IMG/VR virus record: IMGVR_UViG_3300023179_000013
Location: 1-64,000 of that record
From: a virus
Reading direction: 5' to 3' (one strand)
DNA length: 64,000 nt
A program made the position numbers and the translations under genes. Shown here piece after piece: positions 2,085-14,559 of this stretch (its first letter is position 1; each line of letters begins with the position of its first letter). Below the pieces are notes generated by a model. It did not search any database and had not been told where the DNA came from. It worked only from the letters and a program-made list of their open reading frames with translations.

Positions 2085-2110
2085 AAGGCAAAACCTTATT
2101 TGTATATTTA
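2085..2110 (+). promoter_or_regulatory. Early-type promoter inside a small dyad
   Basis: Box GGCAAAA (2087-2093), nine-base spacer, TATATTTA (2103-2110), then an A-rich leader to the ATG at 2126. The box sits in a dyad AAGG-CAAAA-CCTT (2085-2097). The element recurs about twenty times in the window. Confidence 0.7.
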
Positions 2111-2125
2111 TGCAAATTAAAGGTT

Positions 2126-2479
2126 ATGATTATAGTAGCAGATAACAAAGCAGTAGTCCATAGTTTAATCGCTCCAATTATATTCGAATCAATTCAGGAG
2201 CCAGGTAAACGTTATATCATTGCAGATGGAAAATGGACTGAAATACATGATGGAATTAATAAAGACAACATCATTTGGTTTAAAAGACCATACGAAGGAG
2301 GTAAACATCATGCCTTCAAAAATACAGCTGAGTGGGAAGTAGATGGTTCTAAAGGTAAAAAATACACTGTAAAAGCAACTGAAGATAATTGGTCATGTAG
2401 TTGTCCTGCCTATGGGTGGTCAGGAGCGAAGCGCAGTTGCAAACATATCGAACAAATCAAGAAGGAAAATAATTGGTAG
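2126..2479 (+). CDS. SWIM zinc-finger protein
   Basis: A 117-residue protein whose C-terminal third carries the SWIM zinc-binding pattern C-x-C-x11-C-x-H, with Cys91, Cys93, Cys105 and His107. SWIM domains bind one zinc and mediate DNA or protein contacts. The first 70 residues show no known domain and look like a small beta-rich fold. It has its own promoter and is followed directly by a second promoter that overlaps its stop codon. A role in DNA binding or transcription is plausible but is inference. Confidence 0.75.
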   Translation: MIIVADNKAVVHSLIAPIIFESIQEPGKRYIIADGKWTEIHDGINKDNIIWFKRPYEGGKHHAFKNTAEWEVDGSKGKKYTVKATEDNWSCSCPAYGWSGAKRSCKHIEQIKKENNW

Positions 2480-2502
2480 GCAAAATTGCTTACCTATATT
2501 TA
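2475..2502 (+). promoter_or_regulatory. Early-type promoter fused to a perfect hairpin
   Basis: GGCAAAA (2479-2485), nine-base spacer, TATATTTA (2495-2502). The upstream box and spacer form a hairpin GGTAGGCAA / TTGCTTACC (2475-2494) with a two-base centre, allowing one G-T pair. It overlaps the stop of the SWIM gene and drives the ATPase gene at 2519. Confidence 0.75.
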
Positions 2503-2518
2503 ATTCAAATCAAAGGTT

Positions 2519-3328
2519 ATGAATACAAAACGTCGTGGTCGTCCTAAAAAAGAGCAACACGTTGCTCATGCTAAGCGTATTGACTTTTCTAAAGTTAAAA
2601 CGTTAAATCAACTTAACATCAACCCTAGAATGCTCGACACTATGGAGAGTGGATTGAGTATTGATGAGTTGTTTTCTGAAGAGGGAGGTATCCCTTGTGC
2701 TTCCAATTATATGATTATTGGTGATCCTGGAGTAGGTAAAACAACAATCCTACTTGATGTATTAGCATCAGTTCAACGTCGTGATAATACACTGAACTGT
2801 TTGTTTATCTCAGGTGAAATGGGGCGTAAACAGATGTTTAAATACACTGAACGTTTCCCTCAGTTCCGAAATGTCCAAACAATGTTTACAGCTGACTATA
2901 TGGAACACAATACTAAGGATGTAGTTGAGCAGTTGCTTGAAATTGGATGGGATTTAGTATTGATTGATAGCGCTGCTGAAATCATTGAAGGCGTTAGAGA
3001 TGATAATGGATGGGATAGAAAAACAGCTGAATCCTGGTTTGTTGATATGTGTATCAAGCATAACAAGGGTTCAAATGATAAAGACAAATATACTACGTTT
3101 CTTGCTATTCAACAAGTAACTAAACAGGGTGAGTTTGTAGGTTCAAACAAATTAAAACACCTGTTTGATGCAATGGGAGAGATGCGACGCAAGTCAAATC
3201 GTGAAGGTGGAGGTACCTATATGACATTCAGTAAGAATCGAAACGGGAATGTAGGTAAAGTATTCAACTACACACTATCAAATGATCAGATTGTATATGG
3301 AACTATTGAGGAAGAGGAAGTTGAATAG
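2519..3328 (+). CDS. RecA-fold ATPase (RadA/DnaB-core-like) with N-terminal AT-hook
   Basis: A 269-residue P-loop ATPase. Walker A GDPGVGKTT lies at residues 68-76 and Walker B LVLID at 146-150. A glutamine-ended strand near AIQQV follows, in the RecA/RadA/DnaB-core order. The N-terminus carries RRGRPKKE, an AT-hook-like DNA-binding tail. It is too short for a full UvsX or replicative helicase, so a single-domain recombination mediator or RadA-like protein is the best reading. It has its own promoter and the next gene another, so it is probably a single-gene unit. The exact role (recombination, repair or helicase loading) cannot be fixed from sequence. Confidence 0.75.
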   Translation: MNTKRRGRPKKEQHVAHAKRIDFSKVKTLNQLNINPRMLDTMESGLSIDELFSEEGGIPCASNYMIIGDPGVGKTTILLDVLASVQRRDNTLNCLFISGEMGRKQMFKYTERFPQFRNVQTMFTADYMEHNTKDVVEQLLEIGWDLVLIDSAAEIIEGVRDDNGWDRKTAESWFVDMCIKHNKGSNDKDKYTTFLAIQQVTKQGEFVGSNKLKHLFDAMGEMRRKSNREGGGTYMTFSKNRNGNVGKVFNYTLSNDQIVYGTIEEEEVE

Positions 3329-3351
3329 GCATTGTTTGGTTAGTATATTTA
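3328..3351 (+). promoter_or_regulatory. Early-type promoter, degenerate upstream box
   Basis: GGCATTG (3328-3334), nine-base spacer, TATATTTA (3344-3351), twenty bases before the ATG at 3371. Two bases of the upstream box differ from the usual GGCAAAG. Confidence 0.6.
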
Positions 3352-3370
3352 ATCATTAAAATAATTAGTT

Positions 3371-3559
3371 ATGAAATTGAAATTAGAAAAAGAAGTATGT
3401 TGGGAAAATGGTAAATCAGTTACTAAGTATTGGATTTATGTTGATGAACGAGTTATTGATATTGCTTGGACTGAAGAAGAAGCAATGGAAAAATATGAAA
3501 ACGTCAAAGCAAATTACATAGCTTCATCCAAACAAGTAATCAAAGAAGAAACACTATGA
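3371..3559 (+). CDS. Hypothetical protein
   Basis: A 62-residue protein with an N-terminal beta-like half (alternating charged and hydrophobic residues, one Cys, several Trp and Tyr) and a helical acidic middle. No family is recognised. It follows its own promoter, and its stop overlaps the start of the next small gene (ATGA). Function unknown. Confidence 0.65.
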   Translation: MKLKLEKEVCWENGKSVTKYWIYVDERVIDIAWTEEEAMEKYENVKANYIASSKQVIKEETL

Positions 3560-3711
3560 AACTAAAAACCTACACTGAATACAATAATTTCTACCCAATT
3601 CCAACAATACGAGTGTATTGGGATGAGTATTGGGAAGGTGGATTGTATAAGTTAAATATAGAATTTGTTTGGTTGAAATGGAATTTAGCATTAATATTAA
3701 TTGATAAATAA
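3556..3711 (+). CDS. Small aromatic-rich hypothetical protein
   Basis: A 51-residue open frame beginning with an ATGA overlap on the previous gene. It is rich in Tyr and Trp and ends in a hydrophobic stretch of Leu and Ile (about residues 37-49). The translational coupling supports it, but no homologue is recognised. It could be membrane associated. Confidence 0.5.
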   Translation: MKLKTYTEYNNFYPIPTIRVYWDEYWEGGLYKLNIEFVWLKWNLALILIDK

Positions 3712-3721
3712 AATAAAGGTT

Positions 3722-3961
3722 ATGAGCAAGAAAAAAACAACAACACCGAAACCACTTCCAAAACAGTACATTGCTATTGATACAAATCAAGATTCCATCA
3801 TAACAATTGGTGACCTAAAATATGTTTCAGATGAAGTTAATGAATACATTGAGATGGAAGAGTATGATGCAGATGATATTGAAAACAACATCAGAGTGTT
3901 TGAATTAGGTAACATGGTAGAGATGTTTACCGAAACAAAAACACGAGTTCATTTTAATTAA
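3722..3961 (+). CDS. Acidic hypothetical protein
   Basis: A 79-residue protein with a basic Thr/Pro-rich N-terminal tail (MSKKKTTTPKPLPK) and a strongly acidic body rich in Asp and Glu. The ATG at 3722 follows the AAAGGTT leader used by many genes here; an in-frame upstream ATG at 3701 lies inside the preceding gene and is less likely. Function unknown. The structured element at 3967-4083 lies just downstream in the same transcript. Confidence 0.6.
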   Translation: MSKKKTTTPKPLPKQYIAIDTNQDSIITIGDLKYVSDEVNEYIEMEEYDADDIENNIRVFELGNMVEMFTETKTRVHFN

Positions 3962-3966
3962 ATAAC

Positions 3967-4089
3967 TAATCCCCAACAACAGCCATCGCCTTCAAGCACA
4001 ATACTGCTGCGTGCTGAATACCTCCTACAAGGACGCTTAACTGTCCAGGACGAAAAGGTTATCCTAAGCAGGTGAGGGGATTATTTTTT
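3967..4089 (+). ncRNA. Candidate structured RNA closed by an 8-bp stem and T-run
   Basis: Non-coding stretch between two genes. Outer arms TAATCCCC (3967-3974) and GGGGATTA (4076-4083) are perfectly complementary and are followed by six T residues. Inside are TTCAAGCAC / GTGCTGAA (3991-4017, one bulge), a GGAC / GTCC hairpin (4031-4046) and AGGA / TCCT (4047-4065), the last two being mutually compatible. It is more GC-rich than its surroundings. It could be a 3' UTR element with terminator or a small RNA. I did not match it to a known class. Confidence 0.45.
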
Positions 4090-4093
4090 AAAA

Positions 4094-4117
4094 GGCAAAA
4101 TTCAAGTCATAGATTCA
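4094..4117 (+). promoter_or_regulatory. Early-type promoter
   Basis: GGCAAAA (4094-4100), nine-base spacer, TAGATTCA (4110-4117), then an A-rich leader to the ATG at 4138. It begins five bases after the T-run closing the structured element upstream. Confidence 0.65.
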
Positions 4118-4137
4118 TCTAAACAAAATTAAAGGTT

Positions 4138-4380
4138 ATGATAACATTTGAACAACTACGCGAAGCGGTATTTAACTACGAAGCATCATACATCCATTCA
4201 ATGATGGAAGATGAAGGACAGGACTCAACTGAACAGATCAAGGAAATGGAAGAACAAATAATGAATGCTGAGCATGTAGAAGAAATAGTTAATTACTATA
4301 CAGACCATGGATATGAAGAGTATGAAGGTTATGAAAATATCCTTAAAGCGTTGATGGCAAAAACAACTATCGTACATTAA
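4138..4380 (+). CDS. Acidic hypothetical protein
   Basis: An 80-residue, very acidic, helix-rich protein with many Glu, Tyr and Met residues and no zinc or catalytic motif. It follows a promoter and the AAAGGTT leader, and the next gene starts after a similar leader, so both may share the transcript. Small acidic phage proteins often inhibit host enzymes by mimicry of DNA, but nothing here shows that. Function unknown. Confidence 0.6.
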   Translation: MITFEQLREAVFNYEASYIHSMMEDEGQDSTEQIKEMEEQIMNAEHVEEIVNYYTDHGYEEYEGYENILKALMAKTTIVH

Positions 4381-4397
4381 TAATATAATTAAAGGTT

Positions 4398-4613
4398 ATG
4401 AAAAACAAAACAAACAGACAAGTCCTAACTAAGGCAATTAAGGAATTAAGTGATATGGATTTAGTATTCCTACGTGAGCGCATTTTAGAGGCATGTGATG
4501 CCGTATTAGAAAACGAAGCATACATTCGCGAACAAATGCAGCATCACATTATTAGCCCCGATTTATATCTTGAATCGATGCGCAATATTAAATCCAAAAT
4601 AGATTTCGAATAA
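4398..4613 (+). CDS. Hypothetical helical protein
   Basis: A 71-residue helical protein with an even mix of acidic and basic residues and one Cys. It has no recognised domain. The start follows AATTAAAGGTT, the standard leader of this region, seventeen bases after the previous stop. It probably belongs to the transcript started at 4094. Confidence 0.6.
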   Translation: MKNKTNRQVLTKAIKELSDMDLVFLRERILEACDAVLENEAYIREQMQHHIISPDLYLESMRNIKSKIDFE

Positions 4614-4662
4614 TAAGTTGCTATGTAAAATTAGCAAAGCTTTGGCAGTATACTACACCACT

Positions 4663-4690
4663 ACATCTATACGTATATACGATTAGATGT
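4663..4690 (+). repeat. Inverted repeat upstream of a promoter
   Basis: ACATCTA (4663-4669) and TAGATGT (4684-4690) pair perfectly around a fourteen-base A/T-rich loop. It ends five bases before the GGCAAAG box of the next promoter. It could terminate the upstream transcript or bind a regulator; no T-run follows. Confidence 0.4.
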
Positions 4691-4694
4691 GGAG

Positions 4695-4718
4695 GGCAAA
4701 GTAGAGATCGTAGATTGA
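4695..4718 (+). promoter_or_regulatory. Early-type promoter
   Basis: GGCAAAG (4695-4701), nine-base spacer, TAGATTGA (4711-4718). It drives the gene at 4739 through an A-rich leader ending in AAAAGGTT. Confidence 0.65.
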
Positions 4719-4738
4719 ATGTAATAAATTAAAAGGTT

Positions 4739-4957
4739 ATGATAAAAAGTAAAAAAGAAAAATCAGGTCCAATTGAAATTGACTTAACAGGTCCGGACGG
4801 AAATGCGTTTGTATTGCTTGGTATAGCAGGTAGACTTGCAAAACAATTAGGAAAAGACAAATCCAAGATTCAAGCCGAAATGACAAGTGGTGATTATGAG
4901 AATCTATTGAGCGTAATGGAACGTGAATTTGGCGACTACATTGTTATGTATCGCTAA
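4739..4957 (+). CDS. Conserved phage protein of unknown function
   Basis: A 72-residue protein with a basic start, then IEIDLTGPDGNAFVLLGIAG (about residues 12-31), which resembles a short conserved protein seen in several T4-like phages. The remainder is helical and acidic. The function of that family is not known to me. It has its own promoter and is followed by another, so it is probably monocistronic. Confidence 0.65.
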   Translation: MIKSKKEKSGPIEIDLTGPDGNAFVLLGIAGRLAKQLGKDKSKIQAEMTSGDYENLLSVMEREFGDYIVMYR

Positions 4958-4969
4958 TTGCGTTTGGAG

Positions 4970-4993
4970 GGCAAAGCAGTAGTTGTATATTTA
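4970..4993 (+). promoter_or_regulatory. Early-type promoter
   Basis: GGCAAAG (4970-4976), nine-base spacer, TATATTTA (4986-4993), close to the consensus. The gene starts at 5016. Confidence 0.7.
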
Positions 4994-5015
4994 ACGTAAT
5001 AAAAATTAATAAGTT

Positions 5016-5240
5016 ATGATAAAATCTCATTCAGTTATAGAGGGTAATTTAAGAGCAGATAAATGCTTAAGTGACTTTGGAGGTCCAAATCAATGGGATC
5101 TATATGTTAAAACAGTTGAGGGATATTGGGAAAACGTTCAATGGATGAACGTATATAGAATACAGGAACTCTTCAAAACGAAGTTACCAATATACAGAGA
5201 GGTAACAAAACAACAAGCCAAATACGAAGTGGTACAGTAA
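5016..5240 (+). CDS. Hypothetical protein
   Basis: A 74-residue protein, roughly neutral, with several Trp and Tyr residues and no recognised motif. It has its own consensus promoter. The next gene follows after 35 bases containing a TATATTTA-like box at about 5246 without a clear upstream box. Function unknown. Confidence 0.6.
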   Translation: MIKSHSVIEGNLRADKCLSDFGGPNQWDLYVKTVEGYWENVQWMNVYRIQELFKTKLPIYREVTKQQAKYEVVQ

Positions 5241-5275
5241 CTACATTATATTTACCATAATTAAAACGTAATAGT

Positions 5276-5539
5276 ATGACAAGACAGCAATTAGCACAGA
5301 TGGATCTAAACGATTTACGTTCACTACGCGATGCGGTTAAGAGTGAATTGGAAAGTCGAGCAGACAATATGCGATACACATTGAATCCAGGTGATCGAGT
5401 AAAAGTTAATCACAACAAAACAACAGGCAAAACGTTTGTAGTAGTTGAAATTAAACGTAAAAAGGCGTTGTTGGAAGATATTAATGATAGACGTACACGT
5501 TGGAACGTATCATTAGGTTTGATTGAGAAGGCAAAGTAA
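5276..5539 (+). CDS. Hypothetical protein, possible small beta-barrel
   Basis: An 87-residue basic protein with a helical N-terminus (residues 1-30) and a beta-rich middle containing PGDRVKVNHNKTTGKTFVVV. The last part resembles SH3-like or KOW-type barrels that bind nucleic acid or ribosomes. That likeness is weak and is inference. The promoter for the next gene overlaps its 3' end. Function unknown. Confidence 0.6.
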   Translation: MTRQQLAQMDLNDLRSLRDAVKSELESRADNMRYTLNPGDRVKVNHNKTTGKTFVVVEIKRKKALLEDINDRRTRWNVSLGLIEKAK

Positions 5540-5577
5540 TTGCGTTAGATTCACCATACACGATTGCATGATGCAAT
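5530..5577 (+). promoter_or_regulatory. Early-type promoter overlapping a stop codon, with downstream palindrome
   Basis: GGCAAAG (5530-5536) covers the last codons of the upstream gene, then nine bases and TAGATTCA (5546-5553). Ten bases further, ATTGCAT and ATGCAAT (5563-5577) form a perfect palindrome with a one-base centre. It lies in the untranslated leader of the gene at 5623 and is a candidate operator. Confidence 0.55.
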
Positions 5578-5622
5578 AGAGTGTAAAATAATTTAAATAA
5601 ACAAATAAATAAATCAAAGGTT

Positions 5623-6003
5623 ATGATTAAGTTTAATGCACCAAAAGACAGATATGATAAGTTTAGATTAAATAGCAAAAATCCAGCTATTCAGAAAATG
5701 GTCATTGATACGTTTAAAAGTAATGGTATTAATGTGTATAAAAATACAGTAGAATATGATCCGGAATTTCCATATTTGTATTGGGATGGAGATGAATTAA
5801 CACAAAGCCATGGTACGGAAAATCTATTGAGTTTGGAAAAATTCATGGCTAAATTTATTGCAAAGGAAAGTATTGAAGTGAAATTAAATGAATCATATAC
5901 CGCCATTGTTGATGAAGATGGTGTAAGAGTGGGATGTCAAAGTTTTCCACATAGCGTTATTGAGAAATTAGCAGAGGCAGTTAAAAAAATTAAAAATCAA
6001 TAG
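5623..6003 (+). CDS. Hypothetical protein
   Basis: A 126-residue protein of mixed alpha/beta composition with no recognised motif. The second half contains an ESYTAIVDEDGVRVGCQSF-like strand-turn-strand and a helical, lysine-rich C-terminus. It follows the AAAGGTT leader and is two bases upstream of the next start, so the two are co-expressed. Function unknown. Confidence 0.65.
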   Translation: MIKFNAPKDRYDKFRLNSKNPAIQKMVIDTFKSNGINVYKNTVEYDPEFPYLYWDGDELTQSHGTENLLSLEKFMAKFIAKESIEVKLNESYTAIVDEDGVRVGCQSFPHSVIEKLAEAVKKIKNQ

Positions 6004-6004
6004 T

Positions 6005-6247
6005 ATGAGTAAGTTAAAAAACTGGGAAATAATAGACTGTGCCGTGTATAAAACAACACACTGGCAAATCGAAACGCATCCTGAAGAGGGTGAGGGAGAT
6101 ATATATTATGTAAGGTGTGAAGAGGATGATTTTAGTAATATATGGTACGTGAATAGTAGAAATGAAGGAACAATTGATGATGATACGGAACTGTTCAATG
6201 AATTGATTGAAATATGTGAGCGAGCGGGAGATGATATAGTGGGGTAA
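6005..6247 (+). CDS. Acidic hypothetical protein
   Basis: An 80-residue, strongly acidic protein with scattered Cys, Trp and Tyr residues and no clear motif. It starts two bases after the previous stop with the AGTATG start context found at several genes here. The next promoter begins thirteen bases after its stop. Function unknown. Confidence 0.6.
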   Translation: MSKLKNWEIIDCAVYKTTHWQIETHPEEGEGDIYYVRCEEDDFSNIWYVNSRNEGTIDDDTELFNELIEICERAGDDIVG

Positions 6248-6259
6248 GAGGAATAGGAT

Positions 6260-6283
6260 GGCAAAATAGTAATCGTATATTTC
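6260..6283 (+). promoter_or_regulatory. Early-type promoter
   Basis: GGCAAAA (6260-6266), nine-base spacer, TATATTTC (6276-6283), followed by an A/T-rich leader to the ATG at 6307. Confidence 0.65.
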
Positions 6284-6306
6284 CAGTAAATAAAAAATTA
6301 AATAGT

Positions 6307-6453
6307 ATGGAAACGAATCAAAAAACTAAATATACCGTATATTATCGAAAAGGTAAATGGGTAATTGTTAGTAATACAACAAATAAAGTAATTAAACGCT
6401 TTTCAACACATATCGATGCTGGTAAATGTGCTAGAAAATTAGAAAAATGTTAA
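6307..6453 (+). CDS. Small basic hypothetical protein
   Basis: A 48-residue basic protein with an N-terminal beta-hairpin-like stretch (TVYYRKGKWVIV) and a lysine-rich C-terminus with two Cys. It resembles the short DUF-type 'repeat-like' proteins of phages only in general composition. It has its own promoter, which supports it as a gene. Function unknown. Confidence 0.55.
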   Translation: METNQKTKYTVYYRKGKWVIVSNTTNKVIKRFSTHIDAGKCARKLEKC

Positions 6454-6475
6454 TAAACATTAAATAACGTATCGT

Positions 6476-6715
6476 ATGGCTGAGTTTTCAAAACAATACT
6501 GTCAAACACACGACATGGGATTTGACGGTGATTTCGATATATTGGAGGAATGGAATAAATTGAAACCGGGCTATTGTGTAGCGTTGATATGTGAGGGTTA
6601 CGGATTTACTAATATATGTAAGAGCGAGGATGGCGAGGAATGTTTATTATATTTCCCTGATGGAGATGAATTCGGAACACATTGGGTTGATTATTTTAAG
6701 TTGGAGTTAATGTAA
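6476..6715 (+). CDS. Hypothetical protein
   Basis: A 79-residue acidic protein with four Cys residues spread through the chain and many aromatic residues, suggesting a compact fold, possibly metal binding. No CxxC pair is present. It follows 22 bases after the previous gene and probably shares its transcript. Function unknown. Confidence 0.6.
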   Translation: MAEFSKQYCQTHDMGFDGDFDILEEWNKLKPGYCVALICEGYGFTNICKSEDGEECLLYFPDGDEFGTHWVDYFKLELM

Positions 6716-6734
6716 ATAAATAAAACGTAATAGT

Positions 6735-6902
6735 ATGAAAATAGATTTTAAGGCGTTAGGTAAAGCAATTATGTGGACGGGTGGTGTAATGACGTTAGCA
6801 CTTGGTGTAGCGTTGTTGACGAAGTGGTTAGGTAGTGGTATTTTGTTGGTACTTAATGTGGTTTTTTTGACTGCGCTATTCTATTTTATATTGAAAGACT
6901 AG
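6735..6902 (+). CDS. Small two-helix membrane protein
   Basis: A 55-residue protein with two hydrophobic segments (about residues 11-29 and 33-52) separated by a short polar turn with Lys and Trp. It is probably an inner-membrane hairpin, holin-like in shape, but short, and nothing else ties it to lysis. The start follows the AGTATG context. Its stop lies at the base of the hairpin at 6902. Confidence 0.55.
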   Translation: MKIDFKALGKAIMWTGGVMTLALGVALLTKWLGSGILLVLNVVFLTALFYFILKD

Positions 6903-6934
6903 CGTTTTTTTGCGCGTTATATGCGCTAAAACGC
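6902..6934 (+). terminator. Hairpin with nested stems
   Basis: GCGTTTT (6902-6908) pairs with AAAACGC (6928-6934), and inside it GCGC (6912-6915) pairs with GCGC (6923-6926). It overlaps the stop codon of the membrane protein, and a T-rich run follows after five bases. Probable terminator. Confidence 0.5.
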
Positions 6935-6991
6935 AATTGTTTTTTGTTGCTGTGTAGTATAGTAAATGTGACAAACAAGAGTAATGTGTAA

Positions 6992-7021
6992 AAGCGATAT
7001 TTTTTGCTGCGCTTATTTTTT
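6992..7021 (+). terminator. Terminator-like hairpin with T-run
   Basis: AAGCG (6992-6996) pairs with CGCTT (7010-7014) across a thirteen-base loop and is followed by ATTTTTT. It is the second possible terminator after the membrane protein gene. Confidence 0.45.
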
Positions 7022-7143
7022 GTTGTGTCACTACATTTGTATGTGGAATAAATGATGAGTATGGGGTAGGTATAGTAGTGTTTAATCCACTTTTTTTCCT
7101 GCCCCTCCCCCTTCTTTTTTTAAATAAAAAATATATACGAACA

Positions 7144-7169
7144 CCCCCGTCCCCCTTGGGGGTGGGGGG
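7144..7169 (+). repeat. Strong C/G hairpin abutting a promoter
   Basis: Two runs of five C (7144-7148, 7151-7155), a TT loop, then runs of G (7158-7162, 7164-7169) form a hairpin of about ten G-C pairs. The G run ends on the first base of the promoter box GTCAAAG. It is a likely transcription barrier for read-through. Confidence 0.6.
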
Positions 7170-7192
7170 TCAAAGTTTTTGTTGTAAATTTA
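7169..7192 (+). promoter_or_regulatory. Early-type promoter
   Basis: GTCAAAG (7169-7175), nine-base spacer, TAAATTTA (7185-7192); the ATG of the gene is at 7207. Confidence 0.6.
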
Positions 7193-7206
7193 CATCAAAC
7201 ATTAAT

Positions 7207-7416
7207 ATGAAATACATTTTAAAAAATGAGTTTGTTGATAAGAAGGGTAATAAAAAAACCACATTTTTTGTTGATGCCTTTGACATACCTTTTTTTGGCC
7301 TTCAAGCGCAAATCACATCAAACCTTAACGAAGCTAAGCGATTCAAAACGATGAAAGATGCTGAGAAATGGCGTATGTTTTTTTCAAATGATGCAGTGAT
7401 AGATAAAGTTGATTAA
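7207..7416 (+). CDS. Hypothetical protein
   Basis: A 69-residue basic protein with a beta-like N-terminal half rich in Phe and a helical C-terminal half containing KRFKTMKDAEKW. The second half recalls the short phage proteins that end in an 'A(E/K)KW' helix. The ATG at 7207 is chosen because the promoter lies directly before it. Function unknown. Confidence 0.6.
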   Translation: MKYILKNEFVDKKGNKKTTFFVDAFDIPFFGLQAQITSNLNEAKRFKTMKDAEKWRMFFSNDAVIDKVD

Positions 7417-7424
7417 TTAGTTTT

Positions 7425-7448
7425 GGCAAAGTATTTGTTGTATATTTA
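7425..7448 (+). promoter_or_regulatory. Early-type promoter
   Basis: GGCAAAG (7425-7431), nine-base spacer, TATATTTA (7441-7448), a consensus example. The start codon follows at 7464. Confidence 0.7.
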
Positions 7449-7463
7449 CTAAAACAATTGGTT

Positions 7464-7679
7464 ATGTATTTATTAATGTATGAACATACGCTAACGTCAG
7501 GACAAGTAGCAATGCTTTTTTTGGCTTTTATTATAACACTTTTGGCGTATTTGTTTAAAGATATTCCAGTACTTGGTAAAGCATGGTACGTTATTAAGAT
7601 ATTTTGGATTGTGGTTTTTGGAACACTTTTGTTTAATTTTGCTAAGAAGGAAATTAAAGAATGGTGGAGGAAGGATTAA
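7464..7679 (+). CDS. Small membrane protein
   Basis: A 71-residue protein with two hydrophobic segments (about residues 14-31 and 42-60) and a basic, tryptophan-containing C-terminus (KEIKEWWRKD). This topology suggests an inner-membrane hairpin with a cytoplasmic tail. Holin or superinfection-exclusion roles are possible, but nothing proves either. The gene sits between its own promoter and a strong terminator, so it is monocistronic. Confidence 0.6.
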   Translation: MYLLMYEHTLTSGQVAMLFLAFIITLLAYLFKDIPVLGKAWYVIKIFWIVVFGTLLFNFAKKEIKEWWRKD

Positions 7680-7707
7680 TCAGAATGGGGTGAAATGGGT
7701 TGATATA

Positions 7708-7732
7708 GGGGTGCTTTTGCGCCCCGTTTTGT
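7708..7732 (+). terminator. Rho-independent terminator
   Basis: GGGGTGC (7708-7714), loop TTTT, GCGCCCC (7719-7725), then GTTTTGTT. Seven base pairs including one G-T pair. It ends the membrane-protein transcript. Confidence 0.7.
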
Positions 7733-7736
7733 TGCG

Positions 7737-7805
7737 TTAGATTTGTAAAATCTTAAGCAGCATACCTCTGATCTCTTCACCTATTTCATAAGGCGCCCGC
7801 ATCAT
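7737..7805 (-). CDS. Possible 22-residue minus-strand micropeptide
   Basis: A minus-strand frame of 22 codons with an amphipathic, helix-prone product (ATG codons at 7805 and 7802, stop at 7737-7739). What makes it notable is a consensus early-type promoter on the same strand eight bases before it. If the promoter works, the product is either this peptide from a very short leader or a small antisense or regulatory RNA running toward the terminator at 7708-7732. It is the only minus-strand unit I can support in the window. Confidence 0.3.
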   Translation of the reverse strand: MMRAPYEIGEEIRGMLLKILQI

Positions 7806-7813
7806 TTGCACCG

Positions 7814-7837
7814 TAAATTTATGTTTTTTTCTTTGCC
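7814..7837 (-). promoter_or_regulatory. Early-type promoter on the minus strand
   Basis: Read on the minus strand: GGCAAAG (7837-7831), exactly nine bases, TAAATTTA (7821-7814), then CGG. Spacing and sequence match the plus-strand promoters. It points at the 22-codon frame at 7737-7805. Confidence 0.45.
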
Positions 7838-7839
7838 AT

Positions 7840-7860
7840 CCAACATCATTTTTTTGTTGG
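7840..7860 (+). repeat. Small inverted repeat
   Basis: CCAAC (7840-7844) and GTTGG (7856-7860) flank an eleven-base loop containing seven T. It separates the minus-strand and plus-strand promoters, so it may insulate two divergent transcripts. Confidence 0.35.
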
Positions 7861-7864
7861 TGAG

Positions 7865-7887
7865 GGCAAAATACGGTCGTATATTTA
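7865..7887 (+). promoter_or_regulatory. Early-type promoter
   Basis: GGCAAAA (7865-7871), eight-base spacer, TATATTTA (7880-7887) followed by CGT. The gene starts at 7909. Confidence 0.7.
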
Positions 7888-7908
7888 CGTTAATTAAAAA
7901 TTAAAACA

Positions 7909-8052
7909 ATGACACAACAACAAGTTAATTCAGCTGTTGCTGAAGTAAAAGGATTAGTAGAAAATAGTGAATGGACAATTGATGATGTGGATGTGATGGA
8001 TGGTTTTGTTTATATTACTATTTGCAGACCACAAACAGAAAATGAAAAATAA
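7909..8052 (+). CDS. Small acidic hypothetical protein
   Basis: A 47-residue acidic protein with a helical N-terminus and a strand-like C-terminus with one Cys. It is bounded by its own promoter upstream and the next promoter immediately downstream, which supports it despite its size. Function unknown. Confidence 0.55.
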   Translation: MTQQQVNSAVAEVKGLVENSEWTIDDVDVMDGFVYITICRPQTENEK

Positions 8053-8055
8053 ATG

Positions 8056-8086
8056 TGATGGGGGCAAAACCCCATCATTATATTTA
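8056..8086 (+). promoter_or_regulatory. Early-type promoter embedded in a perfect hairpin
   Basis: TGATGGGG (8056-8063) and CCCCATCA (8070-8077) form a perfect 8-bp stem whose loop GCAAAA is the core of the promoter box GGCAAAA (8063-8069). TATATTTA (8079-8086) follows after nine bases. This is the clearest case of a promoter box inside a terminator-like hairpin. Confidence 0.75.
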
Positions 8087-8105
8087 CGTCAACAAAATTA
8101 TTAGT

Positions 8106-8762
8106 ATGAAAGTAATAGAAAAGCCGTTTATAATTCGTGATGAGCAAATAGGGACATTTTTGGCGTATGAGGAAATTGAGCCGGAACTGCTCGTCACTCC
8201 CCAAACAGAAAGATACTCGCGTGTGCTCCCAGCACCGTTTTTTTATGAAAAGCGTTTATATTTTGGTTTAATCAAGCGATATGAGCCAGGTGAAAAACCC
8301 TCTTTTCCTAACGGTGGATTTGAGGTACGAGATGAGAGTGGGGCTGTTCGCTCCTATGATCTGGATCAAGTTATTATCCATCCCCAGGTGATCAAGCACC
8401 GTAAAACATTAGATAAAATGGCTCGCCGCGCGGAGAAGGAAGCCAAGAAGCGCGAGCGTCAATGGAAAAAAGCAGCGCGCGAAGCCAAACCTAAAAACAA
8501 GACCGGTAAGCGTGGGCGTCCAGCTTTGGATCCGGCGGTTAAAGCCGCTCGAGAGACAGAGATGGCTGCTCGATCTTTGCGATCAGGTGGAAAGAGAGGA
8601 CGCCCTAAGAGTGGGGTGTCGACACCTAAGATCCCCAAGACCACTGGAGGAAAGCGGGGACGTCCCGCCCTCTCCCCTGAAGCGATAGCTGCGAAGGCGC
8701 AAGCGAAAGCGGTTATTCGCTCCAGATCAGGTGGGAAGAGAGGAAGACCTAAACGCAAATAA
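8106..8762 (+). CDS. AT-hook repeat DNA-binding protein
   Basis: A 218-residue protein. The first 100 residues form a small unknown domain. Residues 101-131 are a highly charged helix rich in Lys, Arg, Glu and Ala. The C-terminal 90 residues carry four KRGRP AT-hooks at about 135-139, 163-167, 183-187 and 211-215, spaced by Ala/Lys-rich linkers. AT-hooks insert into the minor groove of A/T-rich DNA. The coding DNA of the tail is clearly more GC-rich than its neighbours. A role in coating or organising phage or host DNA, or acting as a transcription regulator, is inferred. An upstream in-frame start at 8055 lies before the promoter and is rejected. Confidence 0.75.
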   Translation: MKVIEKPFIIRDEQIGTFLAYEEIEPELLVTPQTERYSRVLPAPFFYEKRLYFGLIKRYEPGEKPSFPNGGFEVRDESGAVRSYDLDQVIIHPQVIKHRKTLDKMARRAEKEAKKRERQWKKAAREAKPKNKTGKRGRPALDPAVKAARETEMAARSLRSGGKRGRPKSGVSTPKIPKTTGGKRGRPALSPEAIAAKAQAKAVIRSRSGGKRGRPKRK

Positions 8763-8772
8763 ATTTGGTCCA

Positions 8773-8795
8773 GGCAAAATCAAGTCGTAGATTTA
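8773..8795 (+). promoter_or_regulatory. Early-type promoter
   Basis: GGCAAAA (8773-8779), eight-base spacer, TAGATTTA (8788-8795), then a 34-base A-rich leader to the ATG at 8830. Confidence 0.6.
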
Positions 8796-8829
8796 AGTAT
8801 TAATAATTAAAACAAATAAAAAACAGGTT

Positions 8830-9075
8830 ATGTCAAATTCAGAAAAAAGCGCAAAGCGCGGTCGTCCAACAATTGAAGGTTCTGCTCGCCAAGCAAAACT
8901 CGCTGCTAAAGCAGCCAAATTGGCTAATGGTGAAAGCATTTCCCGTGGTCGTCCTTCAAACCCTCAGAGCAAAAGGCAAGCACGTCTTGCGGCTCAGCAA
9001 GCCCGTGCGGCTGCTGGTTTGGAGATTAAAGTAGGTCGCCCTAAAAAAGTGGCTACTGAGGCTGTAAACGCCTAA
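8830..9075 (+). CDS. Small AT-hook protein
   Basis: An 81-residue, very basic, Ala/Lys/Arg-rich protein with RGRP at residues 10-13 and 39-42 and GRP at 69-71. The three repeat units have the form (R/K)xGRP then an AR(Q/L)AAK-like helix. It is evidently related in design to the C-terminal tail of the preceding protein and has its own promoter. A histone-like or nucleoid-binding role on A/T-rich DNA is inferred. No other domain is present. Confidence 0.7.
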   Translation: MSNSEKSAKRGRPTIEGSARQAKLAAKAAKLANGESISRGRPSNPQSKRQARLAAQQARAAAGLEIKVGRPKKVATEAVNA

Positions 9076-9094
9076 TTTTCGACCACACAACCCC

Positions 9095-9165
9095 AAGATC
9101 CTGCTTTCAGTTCTTCTATCGTTATGAAACACTAACGCTCTAGTTGGAAGGCAGGATCTTTTTCT
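9095..9165 (+). terminator. Long-stem terminator or small structured RNA
   Basis: AAGATCCTGC (9095-9104) pairs perfectly with GCAGGATCTT (9151-9160). The stem extends four more pairs to 9108/9147, and TTTCTT follows. The loop of about 38 bases is unusually large for a simple terminator and may carry further structure. The right arm contains GGCAGGA, a degenerate promoter box for the gene at 9194. Confidence 0.6.
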
Positions 9166-9173
9166 TATCTTTA
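9150..9173 (+). promoter_or_regulatory. Weak early-type promoter in a terminator arm
   Basis: GGCAGGA (9150-9156, two differences from consensus), nine-base spacer, TATCTTTA (9166-9173). It overlaps the right arm of the long-stem terminator. Confidence 0.45.
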
Positions 9174-9193
9174 TGGTAATTAAAAATTAAAAT

Positions 9194-9403
9194 ATGAAAT
9201 TAGTATCAAAATTAACTCAGACAATTAACGATTACCAGTTAGAAATTAACGGTAAAGAGTATTATTACAAAGAGTATTTGGATGATAGTGGGAAAGTGAT
9301 CGATGACGAATTGTCAGATGGAGACAGTTTAGTGATTGAGGATGAAAATCTTATCGAGCAAGTGAGAGAGTTTGTTGATCAAAATACTTCCTATTATCTT
9401 TAA
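9194..9403 (+). CDS. Acidic hypothetical protein
   Basis: A 69-residue acidic protein with strand-like segments and several Tyr residues. The pattern of YQLEINGKEYYYKEYLDDSG suggests a small beta-sheet fold. No family is recognised. The next gene starts twenty bases after its stop behind an A-rich leader. Function unknown. Confidence 0.6.
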   Translation: MKLVSKLTQTINDYQLEINGKEYYYKEYLDDSGKVIDDELSDGDSLVIEDENLIEQVREFVDQNTSYYL

Positions 9404-9423
9404 TCAAATAAAATTAAAAGCAA

Positions 9424-9627
9424 ATGAAAAACTATTTAGAAGCAATTTTGGATTTAATTACACTTGTTTGGTTTGGTGAGCGTGTACCTGGAGAACCAGT
9501 TAAACCACCCACCTTCAAAACCACCGTCCCAGACGATCAGCCCAGCGAGTATGAGTGGAATCAGATGTTTCGAGTGAGTTCACTTCATGGAGTGAATCAA
9601 AGAGTGTTTTTTGAGTCAAGACGATAA
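9424..9627 (+). CDS. Hypothetical protein
   Basis: A 67-residue protein with a short hydrophobic helix near the N-terminus (residues 5-18) and a proline-rich middle. Its 3' end overlaps the next promoter. No family is recognised; membrane association is possible. Function unknown. Confidence 0.55.
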   Translation: MKNYLEAILDLITLVWFGERVPGEPVKPPTFKTTVPDDQPSEYEWNQMFRVSSLHGVNQRVFFESRR

Positions 9628-9638
9628 TTGTATCTTCA
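9615..9638 (+). promoter_or_regulatory. Early-type promoter overlapping a coding end
   Basis: GTCAAGA (9615-9621) within the last codons of the upstream gene, nine-base spacer, TATCTTCA (9631-9638). It drives the gene at 9662. Confidence 0.55.
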
Positions 9639-9661
9639 CTTAAACAAAAAATTAAAAAGTT

Positions 9662-10078
9662 ATGGCTACAAGATCTTACATCGGAGTTAGAAACACAGAC
9701 GGAACAGTTGATTATATCTATTGCCACTTTGATGGCTATCCAGAGCACAACGGTGAAATTCTCACTGAATATTATACTAATATGGATAAGGTCAAGAAGT
9801 TAATGGGATTGGGTGATTTGAGTATATTGGGAATTGAGATTGGTGAGAAGCAGGATTTTGAAGATTGGAATAATAGAAATAAGAATTGGTGTTTGGCTTA
9901 TGGGCGTGATAGAGGTGAAAGTGGAGTTGAGGTAAAGACAGTTGATTATAGTGAGTTGATTAAGAATCAGAGTGTTGATTATGTGTATGTGTTTGATGGT
10001 GATTATTGGGAGTGTTTTAATACTTATGATCCCAACAAACTTATTGATTTATATAATTCAGTATCTTCGGGTACGTAA
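9662..10078 (+). CDS. Conserved phage/plasmid hypothetical protein
   Basis: A 138-residue acidic protein beginning MATRSYIGVRNTDGTVDYIY and continuing with HFDGYPEHNG. It belongs to a widespread family of phage and plasmid proteins with this N-terminal signature and a later LG(D/E)LSxLG motif, present here around residue 49-58. The family function is not established to my knowledge. It is bounded by its own promoter and a strong terminator. Confidence 0.7.
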   Translation: MATRSYIGVRNTDGTVDYIYCHFDGYPEHNGEILTEYYTNMDKVKKLMGLGDLSILGIEIGEKQDFEDWNNRNKNWCLAYGRDRGESGVEVKTVDYSELIKNQSVDYVYVFDGDYWECFNTYDPNKLIDLYNSVSSGT

Positions 10079-10108
10079 AGACGGTTCATACTTTTAATTT
10101 TTAATTTC

Positions 10109-10136
10109 GGCCTGGGGTTTCCACCCCGGGCCTTGT
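10109..10136 (+). terminator. Strong GC hairpin terminator
   Basis: GGCCTGGGGT (10109-10118), loop TTCC, ACCCCGGGCC (10123-10132), ten pairs with one G-T, then TTGTTTG. The promoter box of the next gene starts seven bases later. Confidence 0.7.
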
Positions 10137-10138
10137 TT

Positions 10139-10162
10139 GTCAAGACTAACAGCGTATATTCA
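10139..10162 (+). promoter_or_regulatory. Early-type promoter, TATATTCA class
   Basis: GTCAAGA (10139-10145), nine-base spacer, TATATTCA (10155-10162) followed by CGTTATAAAATTAA. The same -7 and leader recur at 10704, 11075 and 11306. Confidence 0.65.
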
Positions 10163-10181
10163 CGTTATAAAATTAATAAGT

Positions 10182-10457
10182 ATGAATAAGAAAGAAATTA
10201 GAAACGCAATTAACAAAGCAGCCTATCAGTTCGCTGAATCATTAGGCTATCAGATAGCAGACGATAATGATGGTTCCTCAGTTACGTTCTATAAAGATGG
10301 CTCCGGTGTAGACAATACAATTGAATGGGCTCGCTCGTATCATGAGACATGTGTCTTGAACTGGGCGGACGCTCAGACCAAAGCAGATGCTGATGCTATA
10401 GACGCCCATATGAAACCAATAATCGAACATTATAAGGGTCAGTACGTGGCAAGATAA
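10182..10457 (+). CDS. Hypothetical protein
   Basis: A 91-residue protein with helical ends and a central beta-like stretch. The centre contains SSVTFYKDGSG and a conserved-looking WARSYHETC segment. No enzyme motif is recognised. The ATG at 10182 directly follows the promoter leader; a longer upstream frame would include the promoter itself. Function unknown. Confidence 0.6.
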   Translation: MNKKEIRNAINKAAYQFAESLGYQIADDNDGSSVTFYKDGSGVDNTIEWARSYHETCVLNWADAQTKADADAIDAHMKPIIEHYKGQYVAR

Positions 10458-10471
10458 GCCACTTACATTTA
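10446..10471 (+). promoter_or_regulatory. Early-type promoter within a hairpin
   Basis: GGCAAGA (10448-10454), nine-base spacer, TACATTTA (10464-10471). GTGGC (10446-10450) and GCCAC (10458-10462) form a stem around the box and the stop codon of the upstream gene. Confidence 0.6.
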
Positions 10472-10490
10472 CGGTATAAAATTAAAGCAT

Positions 10491-10682
10491 ATGAATATAA
10501 GACAGTACAGAGAAATGGAACGTCAAGCCGAAGTGGTGACACTGGTAGACGACAAGTTGAAGGAATTGAAGTGTGTGGATGGATTCTATTACATAGGGGA
10601 TCTGATAGATGTGGATGGAAACCCGTGGGTGGAGAGAGATCAAGCGATCCAGATTATCAGACAGGTAAATAAGAAATATTGA
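10491..10682 (+). CDS. Hypothetical protein
   Basis: A 63-residue protein with charged helical ends and a short strand-turn region in the middle (residues 31-46). It has its own promoter before it and another just after it. No family is recognised. Function unknown. Confidence 0.55.
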   Translation: MNIRQYREMERQAEVVTLVDDKLKELKCVDGFYYIGDLIDVDGNPWVERDQAIQIIRQVNKKY

Positions 10683-10687
10683 GGCGG

Positions 10688-10711
10688 GTCAAAACATGGC
10701 TCATATATTCA
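10688..10711 (+). promoter_or_regulatory. Early-type promoter, TATATTCA class
   Basis: GTCAAAA (10688-10694), nine-base spacer, TATATTCA (10704-10711), then the leader CGTTATAAAATTAAAACGT to the ATG at 10731. Confidence 0.65.
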
Positions 10712-10730
10712 CGTTATAAAATTAAAACGT

Positions 10731-11048
10731 ATGAAAAAGTATTTAACACCAGAATCCATTTACAAACAAGAACGTCAAATCAAAGACGCAGTATGGGTAA
10801 ACAAACAGTTTATCTTAACCCAACAAGAAGTATTAGATATACTTAATGCATCTAAATGTAGATATAGAAAACAAACATTAATGAGAACCAAAGCATTAGA
10901 ACTTATAGAGCAATTTAAAGTATTAGTTACTCCTAAGGTATGGAAAGATTGGGTTAACTGGAATGAGGGAGATGATAGAATATCTAACATAATAAACCTA
11001 TTCCATGAAATGTATAGTAATGGAAATTTATTAAAATTGAATAAATAA
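10731..11048 (+). CDS. Hypothetical basic protein
   Basis: A 105-residue basic, helical protein. The middle region, with LTQQEVLDIL then KCRYRKQTLMRTKALELIEQ, has the look of a helix-turn-helix, which would make it a small DNA-binding regulator. That is a tentative reading by eye. It is monocistronic between two early promoters. Confidence 0.55.
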   Translation: MKKYLTPESIYKQERQIKDAVWVNKQFILTQQEVLDILNASKCRYRKQTLMRTKALELIEQFKVLVTPKVWKDWVNWNEGDDRISNIINLFHEMYSNGNLLKLNK

Positions 11049-11053
11049 AGCAA

Positions 11054-11082
11054 GGCGAGTCAAAACTCGCCTCATATATTCA
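11054..11082 (+). promoter_or_regulatory. Early-type promoter embedded in a perfect hairpin
   Basis: GGCGAG (11054-11059), loop TCAAAA, CTCGCC (11066-11071). The loop is the promoter box GTCAAAA (11059-11065) and TATATTCA (11075-11082) follows after nine bases. Confidence 0.7.
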
Positions 11083-11101
11083 CGTTATAAAATTAAAACG
11101 T

Positions 11102-11275
11102 ATGAATACAGAAACAACCCCGTTATTTATTGCAATTAGTAATTTTAATATTAATAACCCACTGGCTGAGAAGCGAATCCCATTCACAGGTACGTGGAGT
11201 GAAGCACGGGAGGAGGTATTAAAGATCAGAGCTGAAAACCCAAAGTGGCATGTAGGAATAGTGATGCCATGTTAA
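11102..11275 (+). CDS. Small hypothetical protein
   Basis: A 57-residue protein with a strand-like N-terminus and a C-terminal half containing TWSEAREEVLKIRAENP and a WHVGIVMP end. Its promoter leader (AAAACGT before ATG) is identical to those of its neighbours, which supports it strongly. Function unknown. Confidence 0.6.
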   Translation: MNTETTPLFIAISNFNINNPLAEKRIPFTGTWSEAREEVLKIRAENPKWHVGIVMPC

Positions 11276-11285
11276 AATAAATAGG

Positions 11286-11313
11286 GCGGGGCATAGCCCC
11301 GCTCGTATATTCA
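11286..11313 (+). promoter_or_regulatory. Early-type promoter embedded in a perfect hairpin
   Basis: GCGGGGC (11286-11292), ATA, GCCCCGC (11296-11302) form a 7-bp stem covering the degenerate box GGCATAG (11290-11296). TATATTCA (11306-11313) follows after nine bases. Confidence 0.65.
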
Positions 11314-11589: not shown

Positions 11590-11618
11590 CGCGCGGCACA
11601 AAAAGCCGCGCGTCTTTT
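11590..11618 (+). terminator. GC-rich terminator
   Basis: CGCGCGGC (11590-11597), loop ACAAAAA, GCCGCGCG (11605-11612), then TCTTTT. Perfect 8-bp stem, closing the transcript of the gene at 11336. Confidence 0.7.
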
Positions 11619-11619
11619 A

Positions 11620-11704
11620 GTCGATGTCGGGCCGCGCGCGGACGATGGCGATATGATGGCGATCTGATCGCGGTCTGCTCCCACGCCAATTGCGGTCCAT
11701 CGAC
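11620..11704 (+). repeat. Long inverted repeat enclosing short tandem repeats
   Basis: GTCGATG and CATCGAC enclose about 70 bases of GC-rich DNA with three degenerate direct repeats (GATGGCGATAT, GATGGCGATCT, GATCGCGGTCT). Direct repeats inside a stable fold recall replication origins or protein-binding arrays. Confidence 0.45.
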
Positions 11705-11917: not shown

Positions 11918-12100
11918 ATGGAACAGAAAAAATATATACCAGACTCATTAATGTTAACCAAAGAGGCACTCGAACAATATGCGCGTGATTTACGTGAACA
12001 ACGTGCTAAAGAATATGGTATAACATTAGAACAATGGGAAGCCGCTATCGTTAGTGGTAGTATTGTACAAACCCCTAACCCTAATACACAACAACAATGA
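11918..12100 (+). CDS. Small helical hypothetical protein
   Basis: A 60-residue protein, mostly helical with a Pro/Asn/Gln-rich end. The stop overlaps the next start, so the two genes are translationally coupled. No family is recognised. Confidence 0.6.
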   Translation: MEQKKYIPDSLMLTKEALEQYARDLREQRAKEYGITLEQWEAAIVSGSIVQTPNPNTQQQ

Positions 12101-12600
12101 GTGTTCGCGAAATTATCCGCATTACTCAGGAACAAGCACATTATTATCAACCGCTAATTAGTAGTCGATATACCTCAGAACAACTATGTGAAAAAGCTAC
12201 TGCTTTTACACTTACATCGGACCCAGATGATCCTCGCTGGGATGTTGTTACTTATTATCAAGATTCTCCATTCTCCCAAGACGGTTCTCTTCTCCCCACC
12301 GAATTCGTCTATGTACTCGTTAATGCTTCTTGCCCCGGAATGGTAAAGATTGGTATGACAGTGCGAGATGTCGATACACGAGCAAAAGAAGTCTCAGGTG
12401 CTACGGGCGTTCCTACACCATGGGTTCCGATTTATTCATTTAAATGTTTTAATTCATATAAATTAGAGCAAGAATTACACGAATATCTTGATTCTGTACG
12501 TGTAAGTGGCAATCGTGAGATGTTTTATATGACATCAATTGATGCTGTTAAAATTGTTGAACAATTAGGCGCTAAATATACTATTCACTCAAACGATTAA
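12097..12600 (+). CDS. T5orf172/MUG113-type GIY-YIG-like protein
   Basis: A 167-residue protein. From about residue 69 the order is VYVLVN, GMVKIGMT, DVDTRAKEVS, TGVPTPWVP, then E-x-x-LHEYLDSVRVSGNREMF. This is the pattern of the T5orf172/MUG113 branch of the GIY-YIG nuclease superfamily. Many such proteins occur in phages and may cut DNA or bind it as part of a regulator. The first 65 residues are specific to this protein. It starts inside the end of the gene at 11918 (overlap of four bases). Confidence 0.75.
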   Translation: MSVREIIRITQEQAHYYQPLISSRYTSEQLCEKATAFTLTSDPDDPRWDVVTYYQDSPFSQDGSLLPTEFVYVLVNASCPGMVKIGMTVRDVDTRAKEVSGATGVPTPWVPIYSFKCFNSYKLEQELHEYLDSVRVSGNREMFYMTSIDAVKIVEQLGAKYTIHSND

Positions 12601-13776: not shown

Positions 13777-14559
13777 ATGTCACATCACTACGATACCGAT
13801 TTAGATACATACTTAGATAGTGAATTAGGTAAAGTTGCTTTAACTAAGCGTGGTCAACCACGTAAACGCAAACCTAAAGAACCCCGCATTTATTTTACTC
13901 AAGATACTGAGGATGCTATTATTGAATATTTAGCTTCTGAAGATCAAGACTTCCGTAATCGACTTTATAAGGACCGTGTTGAATATGCCTTTTATAAATT
14001 GGCTGAAAATATTATTCATACATTTAAGTTCTACTATACCGATTCAGATACGATTGAGGAGTTAAAACACGAAGTAGTTACCTTCTTACTTGAAAAGCTT
14101 CACCTTTATGATCAATCTAAGGGTAAAGCTTATTCTTATTTTGGCACTATTGCCAAACGCTATCTTATCATCTATAATAATAATAACTACAAGAAACTAC
14201 AAGAGCGTGCTGATGTAGAAGAAATAGATGAAGATAAAAACATATTATACGAAACCGTTCGTGAAGCTGAAGAACAAACAGACCCTAATACTTTTATTGA
14301 TCAGTATGTACGTTATGTAGATAAACACCTATATCATTTATTTCCTAAAACTCAGGATGCTAGAACGGCTGATGCTATTATGGAATTATTTCGCAAACGC
14401 GAAACATTAGAAATTTTTAATAAAAAAGCATTATATATCTATATTCGTGAAATTACTGATACTACCACCCCCCAGATTACTAAGGTAACTAAGAAGTTGG
14501 ATACATTGCGTACTAAATTATACAATGAATATTATCAGCACGGATATATAAGGATTTAG
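13777..14559 (+). CDS. 55: Late-transcription sigma factor, gp55-like
   Basis: A 260-residue protein. The central part (about residues 75-140) resembles sigma-70 region 2 as found in T4-type gp55. It has an acidic helix pair, then YDQSKGKAYSYFGTIAKRYL, where the aromatic and basic residues contact the core promoter and core polymerase. The N-terminus is basic and disordered; the C-terminal helices may serve as the flap-binding part. T4 gp55 directs host RNA polymerase to late promoters that lack a -35 box. A matching class of sites (ATATTTATNGGTA) is found before late operons here. Assignment is by motif and context. Confidence 0.75.
   Translation: MSHHYDTDLDTYLDSELGKVALTKRGQPRKRKPKEPRIYFTQDTEDAIIEYLASEDQDFRNRLYKDRVEYAFYKLAENIIHTFKFYYTDSDTIEELKHEVVTFLLEKLHLYDQSKGKAYSYFGTIAKRYLIIYNNNNYKKLQERADVEEIDEDKNILYETVREAEEQTDPNTFIDQYVRYVDKHLYHLFPKTQDARTADAIMELFRKRETLEIFNKKALYIYIREITDTTTPQITKVTKKLDTLRTKLYNEYYQHGYIRI

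Follow-up and report, generated by a model that had tools for sequence, protein, structure and literature searches.

Intergenic elements in this phage genome and its relatives combine a hairpin with the promoter of the next gene, and we think it probable that they represent intrinsic-type terminators of the upstream gene fused into the next gene's promoter. In such a composite stop-start signal, one element of ~35 bases would probably do both jobs. The first-pass annotation of this DNA had raised the same idea, that one short element could end the upstream transcript and start the next, and it gains support from the enrichment of the hairpins, the covariation of their stems, an asymmetry between G-U and A-C mismatches, and linkage to the upstream gene. 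From these observations we infer actual termination, its efficiency and the initiation (and start site) of the next transcript.

The window analyzed covers the opening 64 kb of an IMG/VR virus record of 168,946 bases. The source genome is that of a T4-like myovirus (portal, terminase and major head protein genes are present) with Bacteroidota-type bacteria as its host. Among cultured phages its nearest relative is Flavobacterium phage vB_FspM_immuto_2-6A (immuto), with a major capsid protein 58.5% identical, and a megablast search of known phages with 24 kb of DNA from the window gave no match. The data set comprised the rest of the source genome and 40 relatives (including the near-duplicate contig pairs G033/G034 and G036/G037), with ORFs called mechanically. 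No Rfam family scored above its gathering score.

Promoter motif and hairpins in the source genome

The promoters comprise a G[GT]CAAA box, 10 bases, and a −7 box (TATATTTA or TATATTCA); the G[GT]CAAA box recurs 16 bases (15–17) before the −7 box, and the start codon lies downstream of the latter. The corresponding pattern, GKCAAA-N9-11-TANATTYA, is found about 20 times per near-complete genome in the relatives, nearly always on the coding strand, while a reversed-pattern control gave near-zero matches. On this sequence evidence, the G[GT]CAAA boxes are promoter elements. The promoter recognized by the Bacteroidota primary sigma factor is TTTG / TAnnTTTG (PMC7366714). The phage −7 box is similar to TAnnTTTG but departs from that consensus in its final base, which is A rather than G. 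The main upstream box also differs: G[GT]CAAA is found consistently 16 bases before the −7 box, unlike the Bacteroidota TTTG, and a TTTG near −33 is present in only part of the phage promoters, especially late ones.

Six dyads around such boxes had been reported in the first-pass annotation. All are present at about the positions given there, and when each was folded as RNA and compared with 200 dinucleotide shuffles, five folded clearly better than their shuffles (z −3.4 to −6.5); the dyad at 2085 did not. We refer to elements in which the box forms the loop, or the stem end plus the loop (8056, 11054 and 11286), as type A, and to a 20-base palindrome that holds half of the box in its left arm and directly abuts the −7 box (2475) as type B. 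The features are as follows.

1912–2079, + strand: 55-aa ORF, with a hairpin-bearing promoter past its 3′ end in 7/7 clade-1 relatives
2084–2110, + strand: promoter with the weak dyad AAGG-CAAAA-CCTT (2086–2098); −2.3 kcal/mol, z +0.6
2475–2502, + strand: type B fused element, the 20-base near-perfect palindrome GGTAGGCAAAATTGCTTACC (one G-U); −11.1 kcal/mol, z −3.4
8055–8086, + strand: type A fused element, stem GTGATGGGG/CCCCATCAT; −16.1 kcal/mol, z −3.9
10111–10162, + strand: for contrast, an ordinary terminator, GGCCTGGGG-TTTCCA-CCCCGGGCC-TTGTTTG, then a separate promoter
10446–10471, + strand: fused element GTGGC-AAGATAA-GCCAC; −10.3 kcal/mol, z −3.7
10679–10711, + strand: promoter GTCAAA/TATATTCA with a degenerate hairpin (TGAG/CTCA); weak, z −1.7
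11053–11082, + strand: type A fused element AGGCGAG-TCAAAA-CTCGCCT; −12.7 kcal/mol, z −6.5
11284–11313, + strand: fused element GGGCGGGGC-ATA-GCCCCGCTC; −18.7 kcal/mol, z −4.1

The palindrome at 2475, with the box half in its left arm, adjoins the −7 box TATATTTA (2495–2502); palindromes of this type also occur in G001, G003, G004, G006, G033, G035 and G039, with covarying stems. In the 8055–8086 element the box GGCAAA spans the end of the stem and the loop, which reads GCAAAA, and is followed by the −7 box TATATTTA (8079–8086), while the 11053–11082 element forms 8 bp with an inner T-A pair, places the box GTCAAA in the loop, and continues into TATATTCA (11075–11082). The 11284–11313 element, to which elements in G002 and G035 are related, places its box GGCATA across the stem end and loop; TATATTCA (11306–11313) follows. 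The loop of the 10446 element holds the stop codon TAA of the upstream gene; the −7 box is TACATTTA (10464–10471), and the ortholog in G032 reads GTACGTGGCGAAGTAAGCTACGTAC. The dyad at 2085 is at chance level in the source genome and a hairpin is unsupported there; a hairpin is found at the orthologous 3′ ends in 7 relatives. In the contrast case, the promoter GTCAAG/TATATTCA (10155–10162) is distinct from its upstream terminator, which is kept after the same gene in 9 relatives.

Beyond the window, a further strong example is found at 168.54 kb (−15.4 kcal/mol, z −3.9), and the source genome as a whole has only five or six solid elements. The candidate at 10676–10711 was absent from the earlier list, and the protein encoded at 10731–11048 had no relatives in our scan.

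The accompanying claim that the loop position is kept among these hairpins proved wrong as worded, since the position of the box differs between elements: it is the loop at 11054, at 168.5 kb and at 8056 (there together with the stem end), the stem end plus loop at 11286, and half within the stem at 2475 and 10446. The fixed feature is the register to the −7 box, with stems ending 0–5 bases before it.

Frequency and placement of the hairpins

A lack of enrichment over random spacing, or of covariation in relatives, had been named as grounds for refuting the idea; neither refuted it. Hairpins centered on the box show positional enrichment over arm-swapped sequences. Among 146 non-redundant clade-1 promoters with the box at 16 (near-duplicates removed, unselected for structure), stems of at least 6 bp centered at −12/−12.5 were observed 9 times, against 0.26 expected from arm swaps. 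Across all relatives, GC-containing stems of at least 6 bp numbered 75 versus about 9 (summed over centers −12 to −15 and −17/−18), and the excess is confined to those centers. When 21 genomes were scanned one by one, nearly all displayed an excess (2–8 hairpins versus 0.2–2.3); in two small contigs (G002 and G007) the count was not above the largest control. A loose early test on G000 alone gave a non-significant 7 versus 3.9 because many false −7 sites were included, and the signal is clear only when the specific promoter motif and the relatives are used.

It could be argued that chance and base composition, in the form of G-rich left flanks and C-rich spacers in the GC-richer early intergenic regions, generate these stems, as the behavior of the 2085 dyad (no better than shuffles) and the occurrence of some 6-bp stems in the arm-swap controls might suggest. 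However, the arm swaps keep composition and still give 0.26 versus 9, and orthologous sites show compensatory changes (see below). For the set as a whole we reject this explanation, whose probability is negligible.

The 226 clade-1 promoters divide into 22 with a fused hairpin, 11 with a separate upstream hairpin and 193 with none. The hairpin is an optional add-on and not a property of the promoter, and the fact that ~10% of promoters carry a fused hairpin indicates that it is not needed for promoter activity. Stop codon and −7 box are separated by a median of 30.5 bases with a fused hairpin, 72 with a separate hairpin and 16 without a hairpin, indicating that fusion occurs where the room fits exactly a stop codon and a hairpin.

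These counts also bear on the idea that the hairpin acts as DNA, either extruded or as a palindromic operator in initiation, as in the early promoters of phage N4. While the fixed register to the −7 box and the placement of the box in the loop would suit such a role, 193/226 promoters with the same boxes lack a fused or separate hairpin, which is therefore not required in the manner of N4, and the stem sequences of the fused hairpins have no consensus. The excess of G-U over A-C pairs and the linkage to the upstream gene, both described below, are likewise not what a DNA structure would lead one to expect. A DNA-hairpin promoter is disfavored on these four grounds and appears extremely unlikely.

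Covariation, RNA strand and linkage to the upstream gene

Compensatory changes in relatives had been named as the mark of selection on the structure, and orthologous sites do keep their stems by covariation. Across 13 type-B sequences, 98% of the 8 pairs are formed, and covariation scores 0.449 versus 0.193 ± 0.035; 0/500 shuffles reach that score, and slid versions reach at most 0.22. Because the type-B members had been picked as palindromes, a separate scan anchored only on the GG...CC ends carries particular weight: 12/27 matches formed at least 5 of the 6 inner pairs, against a background of about 10%. In seven orthologous 3′-end families, each sequence's own arms fold 4–8 kcal/mol better than two-ortholog mosaics. 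Mosaic folding replaced column-wise covariation for the alignment of 3′ ends of the DUF932 gene, where stems slide in register.

Single non-Watson-Crick pairs comprised 34 G-U and 6 A-C, compared with 2.9 to 2.5 (about 1:1) in the control (p about 1e-5). This excess points to selection on sense-strand RNA rather than on DNA and, given that the hairpin precedes the −7 box, that RNA must be the transcript of the upstream gene.

Comparison of orthologous gene ends indicates that the hairpin is tied to the upstream rather than the downstream gene. Where only the upstream gene is conserved, a hairpin is found at 151/201 orthologous ends; where only the downstream gene is conserved, the figure is 24/121, with a background of 61/800. 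These unweighted counts lean on the DUF932 family. Family-weighted means are 0.57 and 0.22, respectively (p 0.006), and for fused hairpins alone 0.33 and 0.16, a difference that is not significant (p 0.10). The DUF932 gene lies near the end of the record:

167,733–168,521: DUF932 gene, with a hairpin past its 3′ end in 12/12 clade-1 genomes

The hairpins that follow it mostly precede a −7 box, have differing stems and loops (GTCAA, GAAA, GCAA, TTCC and others), and are kept although the next gene differs between clade-1 genomes.

Regulation of the downstream gene by the hairpin, such as masking of that gene's ribosome site when transcripts read through, would have a precedent in T4 gene e and I-TevI, whose late promoters lie within the 5′ arm of structures that sequester the RBS (PMC3014915). 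As in those cases, promoter sequence and RNA hairpin share bases here; in T4, however, it is the gene's own ribosome site that the hairpin occludes on early RNA (PMC3014915), whereas in these phages the hairpin precedes the start and goes with the previous gene. The entire stem lies upstream of the −7 box, the start codon is usually about 20–45 bases beyond and outside it, and conservation of the hairpin does not follow the downstream gene (24/121 versus 151/201). An RBS-sequestering leader is rejected for these reasons, and downstream regulation in general seems very unlikely.

Terminator-like character, proposed mechanism and related systems

In 22/22 fused elements, the stop codon of a co-directional gene lies within 140 bases (quartiles 26–37 before the −7 box). 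The 8 bases after the stem contain 4.61 T in fused elements, 4.82 in other gene-end hairpins and 2.55 in the background; after fused stems this T-richness is supplied partly by the −7 box, and the first 5 bases hold only 2.93 T. Many fused elements lack a T run right after the stem (type B continues with TATCTTTA, others with CATATATT), and at these termination could be weak, or the hairpin could serve in protecting or processing a 3′ end generated at another site. The elements resemble intrinsic terminators in having a GC-containing hairpin right after the stop codon, a stem that is free to vary and, less clearly, a T-rich tail, and differ from them in that the loop or stem houses the upstream box of the next promoter, the tail is partly that promoter's −7 box, and the U-run is often poor.

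The lack of a strong U-tract in type-B elements would also fit a hairpin that is a 3′-end feature other than a terminator, such as a stabilizing cap that remains once exonucleases have trimmed the RNA, or a site at which read-through RNA is processed or its synthesis pauses, with the promoter overlap a packing effect. The sense-strand RNA signature and the upstream-gene linkage fit this alternative equally well. However, other gene-end hairpins in the same genomes look like ordinary terminators and are equally T-rich, and in other clades many of the fused elements have the form of a textbook terminator (in G004, AAGGGCTTGGTTTTCCAAGCCCTT-TTTT-GTATATTCA; in immuto, GCCTAGTTTTTACTAGGCTTTTTT). We regard a non-terminator feature as unlikely, although it deserves some weight.

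In the fused terminator-promoter that we favor, the upstream box G[GT]CAAA would be reused as the hairpin loop or inner stem, the otherwise free promoter spacer would supply the right arm, and the terminator U-tract would end in the T-rich −7 box TATATTTA. A polymerase arriving from upstream would make the hairpin, slow over the −7 box and release its RNA, and the next round of transcription would begin a few bases downstream. The probable benefit is independent control of single early genes, together with protection of the next promoter against read-through, for a probable cost of about 15 extra bases.

These elements might further act as a general stop-start punctuation, in which the terminated polymerase is handed over, without leaving the DNA, to the promoter that forms the loop and U-tract. 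Recycling termination and re-initiation at adjacent promoters has been described for E. coli RNA polymerase in vitro (PMC11347151). As in that system, a terminator near a promoter could pass polymerase on directly, although terminator-promoter spacing is about zero here, unlike there. We consider such a handover unlikely; if it does take place, neighboring single-gene units would be coupled by polymerase recycling. In either case the phages offer a natural system in which to ask if polymerase, once terminated, starts again at a promoter that overlaps the terminator.

Single terminator-promoter overlaps are already known elsewhere. The E. coli frd/ampC overlap, in which a terminator/attenuator is common to neighboring transcription units, is a single locus, and its geometry differs from that of the phage elements. 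What is new is the systematic overlay, with a promoter box housed in a hairpin loop and a −7 box doubling as a U-tract; the literature covered here, which was incomplete and so cannot establish absence, contained no account of terminators being systematically fused to promoters in this lineage. A compact genome would here repeatedly overlay RNA-folding and promoter-DNA signals on the same bases, with covariation as the proof of selection. Standard annotation would call such a site a terminator or a promoter, and transcription units would be mis-drawn in these phages.

The same design is found with different boxes in other clades, including the cultured immuto. In G008 and G028 hairpins have their center at −17.5 and contain TTTGG in the left arm, in G013, G027 and L037-type loci they fill the spacer after an AAGGAA box, and immuto (MW353175) has AAAAGGCTTG...CAAGTCTTTT-TTCG-TATATTTA or stems with UUCG loops. 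Examples of immuto stems are those at 22,092, 33,345, 67,985 and 130,566. A similar arrangement, in that a hairpin directly precedes a promoter box, occurs in T4 near 125,538, before alt, where the UUCG hairpin ATTAAAGGCCTTCGGGCCTTTAAT-TT-TATAAATA abuts a late −10 box. Since the −10 box suffices for a T4 late promoter, there is no further box that a hairpin would have to hide, and a hairpin abuts the promoter in 1/15 T4 late promoters tested.

A counterpart in phage T4

The late promoter of phage T4 (NC_000866) that lies near 125538 on the minus strand, between alt.1 and alt (TATAAATA), is directly preceded by a UUCG hairpin, so that T4 itself carries a fused element, with a terminator-like hairpin adjoining the next gene's promoter. 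In the late regions of the genome studied here (64,473) and of its relatives, a GTAA loop (of the GNRA class) recurs in ordinary late-gene terminators such as GACCCCGTAAGGTC, with conservation across genomes.

Promoter architecture and a candidate sigma factor

Some promoters outside the early region contain an inverted repeat formed by the TTTG element and the CAAA box (TTTGACTTCGTCAAA), perhaps a site for a dimer or a pair of −33 elements that overlap:

Genome positions 114856, 117699, 122092 and 44654: promoters with the TTTG/CAAA inverted repeat

A 260-residue protein (window 13777-14559) gave a weak match to Sigma70 region 2 (18 bits, below the cut-off) and a weak match to a PHROG sigma factor. 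It is a candidate phage sigma factor resembling T4 gp55.

Other features of the window

Two further proteins were annotated:

2519-3328: RecA/KaiC-like AAA ATPase
12097-12600: T5orf172/MUG113-domain protein, from a family of GIY-YIG-type nucleases

The ATPase, which served as the anchor for the relatives, is kept in most of those fetched (58-75% identity).

The intergenic, non-coding stretch at 3965-4090 is GC-richer and ends in a hairpin arm and T-run just upstream of a promoter; it is possibly a structured RNA, and an Rfam search of it returned no match. Positions 11590-11700 are very GC-rich, conspicuously so against the AT-rich genome, and are laid out as a GGCGCGCGGC...GCCGCGCGTC-TTTTAG terminator followed by GGGCCGCGCGCGGACGATGGCG.
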